From positions 1 through 36,035 of the forward strand of contig JANYGI010000071.1 in the NCBI GenBank assembly GCA_025362495.1: 36,035 nucleotides of DNA, in the 5' to 3' direction. The stretch's first letter is position 1. Each line of letters begins with the position of its first letter. The stretch is from Byssovorax sp. (lineage in GTDB: Bacteria > Myxococcota_A > Polyangia > Polyangiales > Polyangiaceae). Shown here in pieces: positions 25,493 through 28,706 of this stretch. Made by a program: the position numbers and the translations under genes. The notes under the pieces were generated by a model. The model was not told the origin of the DNA, made no database searches, and saw nothing but the letters and a program-made list of their open reading frames with translations.

Positions 25493-27877
25493 CTATGCAG
25501 GAGGTAGCGAGTGCGAGCGGTAAACGACCGGCTGCGGCTTGCCGAACCTGTTAAAGATGGGGTAGCGCAGCGCGTCCATGCTGTTGTGAACGAGCACGCC
25601 GTTGGCGAAGAACTCGTGCGCGCCGTCAACCGTCAGGTCGTAGACCGACCGGTGCTCCCCGGTGGGCGAGCAGCTTTCCACACGAACGAGAGCACGCTCG
25701 CGTCCGGTGGTACTTGTTGATGCGGAAGACGGTGCCGCACCATCCGCAGGTGCGGTCGATGTCGTCGACCCCCGAAGCGCGTCGGAAAGCGCTCTTGCAG
25801 TTGTTCGAGCAAAAGCGAACAGCGTCGTGGAGAGCGAGCGTCTGGAACTTGTCGCCGCACTTCTCGCAGGCACGCTCGACGGACTCTCGGCTCGCGAACG
25901 CGTCTTTGCCGTGTTGGCTGTGCCAGGCTCGCCCCGCGGGGCTTCCGTGCCAAGCCTTGGTAAGAGGCTGGATCGTGCTGACCCGCGCCCTCGCTCGCTC
26001 GCGCCACTCGGGCGTCCAGTGATCGCTGAGATGGTCGAACCCGAGCTTGCACTCCAGGTTGCCGATGTCGTTGTTGAGGGTGTTCTCATCCACGTGGTGG
26101 ATGTGATGCCCCTCGGGGATCGGCCCATGATGGTACTCCCAGATCGCCCGATGAAGGCGATGGCCCTGTTGAGCCATGAAGTAGACACGCAGGGAGCTGT
26201 CCTTCGAGTCGGGGTAGCGTCGGAAGGGAGTGCCGTTGAAAACGACGGCGACGGATGCTCCGTGGATACGTGTTCGCACCCAAGAAGCATATCACCGTAT
26301 CGCAGTGCGTCCAGACGAACCCACCCACGATTTGCAGTCCAGACCGGGTGATCGCCCGTGCCTTCGATAACTCCTCCATCGAACATGAGCCGGTGAATCG
26401 CCGCGCTCTTGAAGGTCATTCCAGAGGCGGTGACGTCGCGCCATCCAAGGCGGGTGAGCACATGGGCGCCCACGGGGACCTGCTCAATCGGCAACGGGCC
26501 CGCGTTGGTGGTGACCAGCGTGCCGGCGACGAGGCAGTGGTTGTCCTTGTCGACGATGTCGTCCAAGAACCTGTCCGCGTTCTGCGGGTCGCGCTTGCGC
26601 CGGTAGTTGACCAGCTCGTACAACGTGCTCTTGCACGAAGGGTCGATATAGAGCCGAGAGAGCTGGCGCTCTTCGTTGGCGTCGTCGGGATCGACGCGCA
26701 GCGCGAGCTTCTCCGCCACCGCACTCACGCCGTCTTCGATGGCGTTGTCGACGTCGGCGAAGGTGATCTTGGCGCCGCGCGCCAGGGCGGCCACCCGGTC
26801 TGGCCGCGAGGGGTCGGCGTACCAGCGCTGCGGGGCGCTGGAGTACCTGGCCTTGATGAGCTTACACCGCTCGATCCACCAGCTTTCCATCTGGTGCGAC
26901 TCGTAGACTTCTTCGAGCAGGTAGAGATTCGCCTCCGCGCCGGAGCCAGCCACGCCGACCACGAGGATGACGCCGGGGTCCTCCCAGCCGTGATCGATGC
27001 CGATGAGGTACTCGGTGAACTTGATCGCGGGCGGGGCGCGCCGGACGTGAACGCCCTCGTTGAAGTGGCTGTAGACGAGCCCCTCGGCGGAGTCGAAATC
27101 GCACTCCCACTCGCGCTGGTATACGGCCTTCTGGCCGGCCGCGAGGAGGCTGGCTTTCGTCTGCGCGACGAACTTCGCGTCGACGTTCTTGGGCGCGTCG
27201 CGCCACGTCGCGTGGAAGCTGTGCTTGAGCCGGAGGGCGTTGAGCCGCTCCTGCTCTTCGGGCGTCGCCAGGGCGATCTGCGCGTCGGTGAGCAGCCGCG
27301 CGACGTTGCCGTCAAGGCCGGCGCGGTGCTCGCGGTGGAGCAAGCCGTAGCGGCCTCGACGGGGGGTGCCGCCGAGGAGGATCATCCGCAGCGACCAGGG
27401 CTCAGAGAACCAGGGCTTGATGATCGCGTCGTAGACGCTCGGGTCGACGTCGTCGCCCTCGTCGATGGTCACGGCGTCGCAGCGGATGCCGCGCGCCGAC
27501 TGCGCCGCCTTGGCGCCGAACCATTTGATCCACGAGCCACCGGGAAAACGGAACTGCCAGGCGGTGTGGTCGATCTGCGCGCCGAGGAACGCCCACGGCG
27601 CTTGCTGGCCCTCGAGCTCGGCGAGGACGCTGTCCTTGTGGACGTCCTTGCAGCTCTTGAACGTCGGCTGGATGTGGACGATACGAATGCCCCGCATCGT
27701 CCCGCCGCCCTCCGTGGGTCGCTCGACGCCATCCCACTGGGAGATCGGGAGATACCAGCCGCCGACGCGCTGAAACCAGCTTTTGCCGACGCCGCGACTC
27801 CACGGGAGCGTGACGCTACGTCCAGGGACGAGCACTTGGTGGGCTCGGGCCTGGGGCAGGTTGAGGTGGAGGTCCAT
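25493..27877 (-). CDS. terL: Large terminase subunit, interrupted by an intein
   Basis: The continuous frame encodes a 794-residue precursor: 447 residues of N-extein, a 318-residue intein and a 29-residue C-extein, giving a 476-residue terminase after splicing. N-terminal ATPase: Walker A RGVGKSW (Lys32, Ser33) and Walker B AVTIDEGD (Asp139, Glu140). Nuclease domain: LIGIDHGWEDPG with Asp295. The C-extein opens with SMDALRYPIFN, whose Asp matches the third acidic residue of the nuclease. ATG at 27877 overlaps the small terminase gene by 62 bp and has no strong Shine-Dalgarno sequence; a GTG at 27835 is a weaker alternative. Packaging motor and DNA cleavage are expected only after splicing. 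Confidence 0.88.
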   Translation of the reverse strand: MDLHLNLPQARAHQVLVPGRSVTLPWSRGVGKSWFQRVGGWYLPISQWDGVERPTEGGGTMRGIRIVHIQPTFKSCKDVHKDSVLAELEGQQAPWAFLGAQIDHTAWQFRFPGGSWIKWFGAKAAQSARGIRCDAVTIDEGDDVDPSVYDAIIKPWFSEPWSLRMILLGGTPRRGRYGLLHREHRAGLDGNVARLLTDAQIALATPEEQERLNALRLKHSFHATWRDAPKNVDAKFVAQTKASLLAAGQKAVYQREWECDFDSAEGLVYSHFNEGVHVRRAPPAIKFTEYLIGIDHGWEDPGVILVVGVAGSGAEANLYLLEEVYESHQMESWWIERCKLIKARYSSAPQRWYADPSRPDRVAALARGAKITFADVDNAIEDGVSAVAEKLALRVDPDDANEERQLSRLYIDPSCKSTLYELVNYRRKRDPQNADRFLDDIVDKDNHCLVAGTLVTTNAGPLPIEQVPVGAHVLTRLGWRDVTASGMTFKSAAIHRLMFDGGVIEGTGDHPVWTANRGWVRLDALRYGDMLLGCEHVSTEHPSPSFSTALPSDATPTRRTAPCVSTSWLNRAIAFIGRSGSTIMGRSPRGITSTTWMRTPSTTTSATWSASSGSTISAITGRPSGASERGRGSARSSLLPRLGTEAPRGEPGTANTAKTRSRAESPSSVPARSAATSSRRSLSTTLFAFARTTARALSDALRGSTTSTAPADGAAPSSASTSTTGRERALVRVESCSPTGEHRSVYDLTVDGAHEFFANGVLVHNSMDALRYPIFNRFGKPQPVVYRSHSLPPA
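25583..26536 (-). other. Intein inside the large terminase (class 1, with split-frame endonuclease region)
   Basis: There are 318 codons in the terminase frame. Block A: CLVAGTLVTT with Cys1 directly after DKDNH. Block B: GTGDHPVWT, with Thr60 and His63 forming the TxxH motif. Block F/G: SVYDLTVDGAHEFF and VLVHN, ending His-Asn before Ser+1. All residues for protein splicing are present. The centre (about intein residues 90-275) in the splicing frame looks like out-of-frame sequence rich in Ser, Arg and Thr, while the alternative frame encodes an HNH endonuclease. Thus the splicing frame is open throughout but the endonuclease domain is not fused to it. Either it is a nested ORF or two frameshifts flank it. 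Confidence 0.9.
25626..26279 (-). CDS. HNH homing endonuclease encoded in another frame within the intein
   Basis: This is a 217-residue ORF from GTG 26279 to TGA 25626, offset from the terminase frame. The HNH core is IWEYHHGPIPEGHHIHHVDE, then Asn residues in NTLNNDIGNLE and a final His in FDHLSDHW. It begins with a family-typical FNGTPFRRYPDSK and RVYF segment, has a KAWHGSPAGRAWHSQHGK element, then two Cys pairs (CEKC, CSNNC) and two more (CGWC, CSRSC) forming probable zinc fingers. An in-frame TGA lies a few codons before the GTG, so the N-intein cannot simply read into it without a -1 shift. No Shine-Dalgarno sequence is seen. The motifs make the protein real; how it is translated is unclear. 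Confidence 0.85.
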   Translation of the reverse strand: MRTRIHGASVAVVFNGTPFRRYPDSKDSSLRVYFMAQQGHRLHRAIWEYHHGPIPEGHHIHHVDENTLNNDIGNLECKLGFDHLSDHWTPEWRERARARVSTIQPLTKAWHGSPAGRAWHSQHGKDAFASRESVERACEKCGDKFQTLALHDAVRFCSNNCKSAFRRASGVDDIDRTCGWCGTVFRINKYHRTRACSRSCGKLLAHRGAPVGLRPDG

Positions 27878-28706
27878 CTTGCGGGAGCGCGACGAGAGCG
27901 GGTGAAGGAGGCGGAAGCGGCGCAATCGGCACCACGCCGTCGGGGTAGACCACGCTGAGCAGGGGGCGCTGCTCGGGGGTGAGCCCAGGGCGCACCGCGG
28001 CCGGCGCCGGCGCGAACACGGCCATTGATTTGGCGATGAGCGCGATGCTGTTGAGCGCCTTGGGGTCGCCCTCGCGCGTGCGGCCGTTGACCGTCTTGCT
28101 GCGCGCGAAGTCGAGGCCCAGGCCAAGCGCCTCGCGGAGCGCGGCCATCACGGAGGCCTGGACGGCGACGGGGTCGACCAGGCGCTGGACGGCGCGGCTT
28201 GCCTCGCACGCGTCGTGCTCGACGGTGCCCGGGTGGACGCCCCAGAGCTTCGCGAGCTCGGGGCCCGTGACGCCGGTGACCCACTCGAGGTGGACCATCA
28301 GGCCGATGATGTGGTTGACCCGTTGCTCTTTCGTCGGCGCGCCCGGCGGCAACTCGCCGATGCGGCGCTTGCGCTGCTGCGGCGGGGCGTCCTGCTCACC
28401 GTCCTGGAACTGGGACGCCGTGTCATCCCGGGACGCAGCCGCGGGATGGTGCTCATCTGGGACGCTGGGACGCTGGGACGTCTCAACATCCCGAGGCCCA
28501 TCCCGGGACGCCGTCCCGCTATCCTGGCCGAGGCCAAGGCACTCCTTGCGGTGGCGGCCGATGCCTGATTTGGAGAGCGGCGGGTAGCGCTCGGCGAGCG
28601 CGACGACGCTGTTGATCTTGCCGCCGGCTGCCAGCGCCGCGTCGATGTCCGTGGCGGCGGCGTGGCGCCCGACGGAGCAGCGACAGGGGCGGGTGGGGGT
28701 GGGCAT
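27816..28706 (-). CDS. terS: Small terminase subunit
   Basis: This is a 296-residue protein. The N-terminus (CRCSVGRHAAATDIDAALAA, then KSGIGRHRKECL) has a short DNA-binding-type pattern seen in small terminases. Residues ~60-115 are a low-complexity linker encoded by a repeat cluster. Residues 144-172 (GVTGPELAKLWGVHPGTVEH) are an HTH. The rest is Ala/Leu-rich and helical with a Pro-rich end that overlaps the start of the large terminase. It should bind the packaging site and load the large subunit. Adjacency to the large subunit supports the call. Confidence 0.85.
   Translation of the reverse strand: MPTPTRPCRCSVGRHAAATDIDAALAAGGKINSVVALAERYPPLSKSGIGRHRKECLGLGQDSGTASRDGPRDVETSQRPSVPDEHHPAAASRDDTASQFQDGEQDAPPQQRKRRIGELPPGAPTKEQRVNHIIGLMVHLEWVTGVTGPELAKLWGVHPGTVEHDACEASRAVQRLVDPVAVQASVMAALREALGLGLDFARSKTVNGRTREGDPKALNSIALIAKSMAVFAPAPAAVRPGLTPEQRPLLSVVYPDGVVPIAPLPPPSPALVALPQDGPPPQPAPGPSPPSARPWT
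28412..28517. repeat. GGGACG repeat cluster within the small terminase gene (candidate pac site)
   Basis: GGGACG occurs at 28412, 28430, 28459, 28467, 28475 and 28505 (start positions), with the 28459-28480 copies in tandem at 8-bp spacing, plus the inverse CGTCCC at 28512-28517. The 13-mer CATCCCGGGACGC occurs at 28424-28436 and 28499-28511. The encoded residues are a low-complexity linker, so the constraint appears to be on DNA. Packaging sites often lie inside the small terminase gene, and this protein has an HTH. The repeats are observed; pac function is inferred. Confidence 0.6.

Follow-up and report, generated by a model that had tools for sequence, protein, structure and literature searches.

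Inteins are usually described as one polypeptide that combines splicing and endonuclease domains. Fractured genes, reportedly described by Dassa et al. in 2009, are split inteins whose two halves are separated by an endonuclease gene. In the available text of PMC6293099, the dCTP deaminase intein of cyanophage CL131 combines HintN with an in-frame HNH_3 domain and self-excises in Escherichia coli, and inteins in terminases are likewise already known (available text of PMC8228797). The closest published case that we found in the open-licence literature is the ShiLan domain, which the available text of PMC11855218 (Arsenault, Gosselin, and Gogarten, Genes 2025) presents as an out-of-frame HNH domain with zinc fingers in a phage DNA methylase gene. 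Here we analyze the large terminase gene on a Byssovorax sp. contig (JANYGI010000071.1, assembly GCA_025362495.1). The whole stretch, referred to as the window, spans 36,035 bases, is one entire contig of a 10.8-Mb draft genome with 240 contigs, and is a tailed phage or prophage. Very probably, its terminase gene carries an intein that splices, while the HNH homing endonuclease of that intein is translated on its own from a gene overprinted in another reading frame. The relevant features of the window are the following.

26537..27877, minus strand: N-extein, large terminase subunit (PHROG 5653 terminase large subunit, E = 1.2e-15, and two further terminase PHROGs)
26267..26536, minus strand: N-terminal splicing half of the intein, residues 1-90, with Cys1 and the GTGDHPVW block (Pfam Intein_splicing; Hint_2 below its cut-off)
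25703..26266, minus strand: intein linker, residues 91-278, in the terminase frame; open, unconserved, and predicted to be disordered
25583..25702, minus strand: C-terminal splicing half of the intein, residues 279-318, with VYDLTVDGAHEFF and VLVHN (C-intein profile, independent E = 4e-17)
25496..25582, minus strand: C-extein (SMDALRYP...) with Ser at +1, assigned from sequence; an intein-free relative has NNHACDAMRY at the same place
26292..26294, minus strand: TGA in the HNH frame, 12 nucleotides (nt) upstream of the GTG, read from the sequence
25626..26279, minus strand: HNH homing endonuclease gene of 217 codons, GTG start and TGA stop (HNH_3 match; -1 frame relative to the terminase)
26049..26159, minus strand: HNH_3 catalytic core, HNH residues 41-77 (Pfam HNH_3)
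25680..25868, minus strand: two Cys4-type zinc-finger-like motifs of the HNH protein (C138/C141...C157/C161 and C178/C181...C196/C200), putatively zinc binding

The terminase open reading frame (ORF; 25493-28126, minus strand) runs without a stop across the 318-codon intein at 25583-26536. The intein motifs follow in order, from Cys1 (CLVAGT) through GTGDHPVW, VYDLTVDGAHEFF, and the terminal VLVHN to the +1 Ser; we take GTGDHPVW to be the TxxH-type block and VYDLTVDGAHEFF to be block F. Pfam Intein_splicing is matched in the terminase frame with an E value of 2.9e-10 (40.6 bits, and 44.1 bits in another scan, against a cut-off of 35.8), and the C-terminal half was scored with a profile made without the window sequence. 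In the AlphaFold model, the predicted local distance difference test (pLDDT) is 84-98 per ten-residue block in the N-terminal splicing half and 93-97 in the C-terminal half (residues 281-318), while the linker (residues 91-280) reaches 32-43 per block and has no secondary structure. The model resembles the solved mini-inteins Mtu RecA (3ifj, TMt 0.81) and NrdJ-1. Thus, Cys or Ser at position 1, a TxxH-type block, terminal Asn, Cys, Ser, or Thr at +1, and a Hint fold are all found in the window. The N-extein matched none of the Pfam families at an E value of 0.001; its start is likely the ATG at 27877, inside the longer ORF.

Within the same DNA, the HNH ORF extends from the GTG at 26279 to the TGA at 25626-25628. 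Counted from HNH, the terminase frame is +1, and the HNH stop codon sits within the DNA coding for block F. HNH_3, whose catalytic core characterizes HNH homing endonucleases, is matched in this shifted frame (E = 2.7e-14, 52.9 bits against a cut-off of 24.8), as is PHROG 15471 (E = 8.2e-35), and the AlphaFold model of the protein has a mean pLDDT of 89.1. Across 18 aligned members, H61, H62, N69, N70, and N74, as well as H83 just past the core, are invariant. The first Cys4 motif (C138, C141, C157, C161) is invariant in all 18, and the second is present in at least 90% of 15 members, with L045 and L072 lacking it. A preliminary description of this DNA, made from its letters alone, had reported the splicing blocks and the 318-codon span as open in one frame, the HNH with its zinc fingers as legible only in a shifted frame, and a TGA in that frame ahead of the GTG; each of these statements, and every coordinate given for the intein and the HNH ORF, was borne out. 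Codon statistics by frame, a check it had proposed, gave GC contents at codon positions 1/2/3 of 0.63/0.51/0.77 in the HNH frame and 0.50/0.77/0.63 for the same DNA in the terminase frame; the composition of the HNH frame is coding-like and points to HNH as the protein-like frame.

The window has a GC content of 70%, and long open shadow frames are frequent in it. Among 217-codon stretches sampled from eleven presumed-coding stretches of the contig (ten other ORFs, some of them unconfirmed genes, and the terminase N-extein), 90 of 2465 (3.7%) were open by chance in the +1 frame and 153 of 2465 in +2. When codons were exchanged among synonymous sites, which keeps protein and codon usage, the absence of a +1 stop from the window HNH gave a P value of 0.16. 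The window alone is therefore weak proof, being compatible with a chance open frame, and the case depends on relatives.

Relatives were collected in several steps. The window HNH as sole query found 57 viral contigs. An alignment of 18 nested members was then used as query, and from the best 80 of its 194 relatives 75 were added, 1 being already included and 4 lying on contigs already represented (L081, L098, L110, and L120, removed). Genome contigs contributed 7 loci (2 nested, 4 split, 1 without intein), and 16 phage records were hand-picked from matches (4 nested, 3 split, 9 without intein; the nested L170 is an unverified clone). Layouts were assigned by scanning profiles of both intein halves, rebuilt from the matches, over the three forward frames of each locus, and a locus was called nested when both halves shared a frame shifted from that of HNH and no stop separated them. 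By this classification, the 156 HNH loci (window included) comprise 94 nested with the intein at +1, 6 nested at +2, 3 nested at +1 without a detected C half, 23 split or broken, 1 with a C half only, 29 without an intein, and none with HNH in frame. The 57 loci from the window-HNH search gave 36, 2, 3, 7, 0, 9, and 0, respectively. One continuous frame occurs in all 100 nested loci, as the class definition entails. Parsing covered 99 nested inteins, all but L105; Cys is the first residue in 98 of them, the exception being L157, truncated at the contig end, and the terminal Asn follows a His in 71. Terminal Asn and +1 Cys/Ser were imposed by the parser and so are not an independent test. Among 93 N-exteins, Terminase_6N was matched in 49 and Terminase_3 in 35, sets that may overlap.

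This census bears on whether assembly or sequencing frameshifts displaced a canonical in-frame HNH intein, a possibility the preliminary description had raised as two compensating frameshifts. The window is indeed a single contig of a draft genome, and in-frame HNH_3 inteins do exist, as in the cyanophage CL131 dCTP deaminase (available text of PMC6293099). However, the same offset recurs in 94 of 156 loci, so a sequencing artifact is rejected for the family. Complete phage records with the nested +1 layout include TJE1, Highwayman, and Rhodobacteraceae phage MD07, most nested HNH frames carry their own start candidate and stop, and the +1 frame lacks stops even where as many as 37 occur in +2 (L031, 31% GC, with none in the intein frame). 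We regard this explanation as scarcely credible. The GC content of the nested loci ranges from 30 to 64% and is below 45% in 43 of 100.

The same synonymous shuffle was used as the null for the family. In the 88 nested +1 genes scored, 0 stops were found in +1 against 169.9 expected, with 1396 in +2 against 1487.1; in the six nested +2 genes the pattern was reversed, with 0 stops in +2 against 46.4 expected and 46 in +1 against 41.7. Intein-free genes (n = 27) had 141 stops in +1 against 145.1 expected, and split loci (n = 22) had 169 against 159.2. The nested class falls into 66 clusters at 50% identity, and the 61 scored representatives, stop-free by definition, had 0 stops against 137.0 expected. 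Nine loci with a stop inside the matched HNH stretch were left out of the shuffle. In six nested ones (L013, L019, L023, L051, L117, and L122) a single stop lies 1 to 11 codons before the match end and, being so close to it, looks like a natural gene end; L055 has a broken HNH frame, and L080 runs beyond its end. These family-wide tests rule out a chance open frame. Selection very likely holds the linker frame stop-free.

Nested relatives compared in 13 pairs, among them near-copies, differ by 0.23/0.19/0.52 at HNH codon positions 1/2/3, while identity in the linker frame equals that in the silent frame. HNH is the conserved protein, and the linker is unconserved. The HNH ORF could instead be a decayed or unexpressed remnant, the linker frame being open merely since the terminase needs it. 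The broken HNH frame of L055 would suit this explanation, as would the window HNH, which lacks a clear Shine-Dalgarno site. Against it stand the conservation of positions 1 and 2 with variation at 3, a linker frame conserved no better than the silent one, and a recent insertion in phage Highwayman (below) that carries the nested endonuclease gene and no in-frame one; a remnant is thus very unlikely. On the HNH tree (97 rows, partial cases included), the nested +1 label requires 24 changes against a shuffled mean of 46.1, with 71 of 148 inner branches below the support limit.

For translation of HNH, the proposed start was taken as the first ATG or, failing that, the first GTG or TTG, in 93 of the 100 nested loci; near-copies L044, L046, and L054 and four nested loci without a start candidate were left out. 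ATG is the proposed start in 81 of 93, and this internal ATG is located at about intein residue 89. A Shine-Dalgarno core precedes 41 of the 93 starts, compared with 12.2% of 1563 control ATGs (Fisher P = 2.2e-13) and 18.3% of shuffled upstream segments. The distance from the HNH-frame stop to the first ATG is short, with a median of 4 codons and 5 or fewer in 49 of 84. We also asked whether the VY(D/N) motif always holds the HNH stop. It does so in 22 of 92 cases, 19 of which have TAT as the Tyr codon, and in 81 of 92 the stop is between -13 and +26 nt from that codon.

Instead of starting internally, ribosomes might reach HNH by programmed -1 frameshifting from the N-intein, yielding a terminase-N-intein-HNH fusion. 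In its favor, 94 of 100 nested loci have an offset of -1. Within 40 codons past the HNH-frame stop, X_XXY_YYZ heptamers are found in 14 of 93 loci, compared with 7 of 93 for a control stretch upstream, and the window GTG is not preceded by a clear Shine-Dalgarno site. No slippery site common to most loci was seen in those 40 codons, however, and six loci in the other frame would need the opposite shift; the short interval from stop to ATG, the predominance of ATG, and the enrichment of Shine-Dalgarno cores likewise speak against frameshifting, which we consider unlikely. The preliminary description had noted that a fusion made by a -1 shift from the terminase frame could not splice, which is logically correct. 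Its other proposal, an independently translated ORF nested in a splicing-competent intein, gains support from the family data.

Mobility is suggested by Acinetobacter phages Highwayman and Acba_21, the intein of 981 nt accounting exactly for the length difference between their terminase genes. Without the intein, the genes are 98.8% identical (15 mismatches in 1302 nt), and all 15 mismatches lie at -163 to +12 of the insertion point, 10 of them within 30 nt. The flanks over 3108 nt are 99.3% identical, with six more mismatches at the far end of the stretch, and the +1 codon is Cys in the occupied Highwayman gene and Leu in the empty Acba_21 gene. Presence and absence at one site, precise insertion, and altered flanks are thus all seen in this pair, and the mismatch tract is what co-conversion in homing would leave, consistent with a recent insertion. 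There are 42 Acinetobacter phage records matching this terminase stretch; two of these were examined for the empty site, and WCHABP12 has the same one as Acba_21. In the HNH searches two Acinetobacter records matched, Highwayman in terL and BP10 outside terL. At the window's own site, an intein-free relative with about 42% protein identity reads through.

We propose that a single mRNA would yield two products. The terminase frame encodes a complete Hint splicing domain, its halves joined by a predicted disordered linker of about 188 residues, and in the -1 frame the linker DNA forms an intact gene for an HNH/zinc-finger homing endonuclease, complete with start and stop codons. Translation in the terminase frame would make a precursor from which the intein, together with its linker, is removed by splicing, and ribosomes initiating at the internal start would make the endonuclease. 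The latter would cut intein-free terminase alleles, and repair would copy the whole unit in. Selection would then preserve the stop-free linker frame and the HNH protein, not the linker sequence. Of this scheme, the sequences themselves show the layout, the conserved frame offset, the avoidance of stops, the identity of the conserved frame, the family-wide enrichment of start sites, and a recent insertion in a relative with a tract resembling co-conversion; splicing, internal initiation in this phage, and cutting of the empty site are inferred from them.

Beyond the modest proof from the window itself, several observations weigh against this proposal. Because the best 80 of 194 relatives were drawn with a nested-only alignment, the proportions among the 156 loci lean to nested forms. 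Taken singly, only 38 of 88 nested +1 genes reach a shuffle P value below 0.05 in +1, and 14 of 88 do so in the control frame +2. The nested class is also partly defined by the absence of stops; a stop-blind set, comprising the 105 loci whose two halves share a shifted frame, was therefore scored, and it answers this objection with 99 stops against 319.0 expected and 94 of 105 loci stop-free, compared with 2 of 27 intein-free loci (Fisher P = 2.9e-16). The HNH model had no significant PDB match, the best being I-HmuI at an E value of 0.33, and an HNH profile found no significant match among PDB sequences. Shine-Dalgarno cores are missing from 52 of 93 family starts. For the window GTG, which has no clear site, the duplex energy is -3.0 kcal/mol against a control-ATG mean of -2.57, and the start is therefore the weakest link for the window.

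More tentatively, overprinting may be the general route by which an intact free-standing endonuclease gene enters an intein, with later loss of the open linker giving split inteins; we see this as possible but somewhat less probable than its negation. Such a gene brings its own stop codon and must therefore sit out of frame. The prevalence of +1 would follow because the HNH +1 frame holds about one-third the stops of +2 (141 versus 473 in 27 intein-free genes). Among split or broken relatives, which are not independent, the C half lies in the +1 frame of HNH in 18 of 23. If this route is real, the nested form links free-standing endonucleases, full inteins, and split inteins.

Several individual loci merit separate description. 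In L053, L054, L131, L149, L150, and L155, HNH is nested in +2, where stops are absent, and +1 contains stops; this implies a further origin or a frame switch. In Lactobacillus phage CL2 (NC_028835; L160:1955-2771), the annotated terL stops at 1954 past the N-intein and is followed by HNH and then by an unannotated C-intein with the terminase tail, which looks like a split-intein terminase. Brevundimonas phage Poludnitsa (L168:2501-2956) has an HNH homologue in the unannotated gap between terL and portal, and Vibrio phage 1.238.A (L169) has a divergent HNH between terL and a separate Hint gene, a split layout on a very long branch. The +1 frame is open across HNH at L093:2627-3712 and terminates close to a terminase-like CDAMRY; neither intein half was detected, and the frame looks degenerate, perhaps a decayed intein. 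L004 is also open in +1 with no intein found, and there the open frame seems due to chance. In the window, the neighbours of the terminase are portal, capsid, sheath, and tape-measure genes.

In this widespread group, the linker DNA doubles as a second gene, for the endonuclease, so that splicing and homing would fall to separate proteins from the same DNA. The group offers many natural examples of overlapping genes nested on the same strand, with the six other-frame cases as an internal control, and near-identical occupied and empty phages are available for homing comparison. How inteins gain endonucleases and how split inteins originate thereby become testable. Current annotation overlooks the nested HNH genes; in three complete nested-form phage genomes examined, terL alone is annotated over HNH.

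In the part of the open-licence literature covered, no out-of-frame endonuclease inside a splicing intein was found. The canonical CL131-type intein (available text of PMC6293099) resembles the window in having a Hint splicing domain and HNH_3 inserted in a host protein, but its nuclease belongs to the intein polypeptide, whereas in the window the nuclease frame is shifted from that of the splicing domain and the nuclease is presumably a separate protein. ShiLan, as far as the available text of PMC11855218 goes, shares with the window an insert open in the host frame, a proposed GTG start, and a mobile distribution. Its authors report there no splicing domains and an insert end that is not always Asn, and they propose that the insert is retained; the window, in contrast, has both splicing halves and a terminase as host. 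The same text gives no detectable ribosome-binding site for ShiLan, whereas Shine-Dalgarno cores occur at the 41 proposed starts counted above. Fractured genes and the present loci are alike in having an endonuclease gene between intein halves, and 23 of 156 loci here are themselves split or broken. Unlike the halves of fractured genes, which lie on separate ORFs, those of the window and the other nested loci are joined by an open frame that runs uninterrupted through the nuclease gene, which would make splicing a cis reaction.

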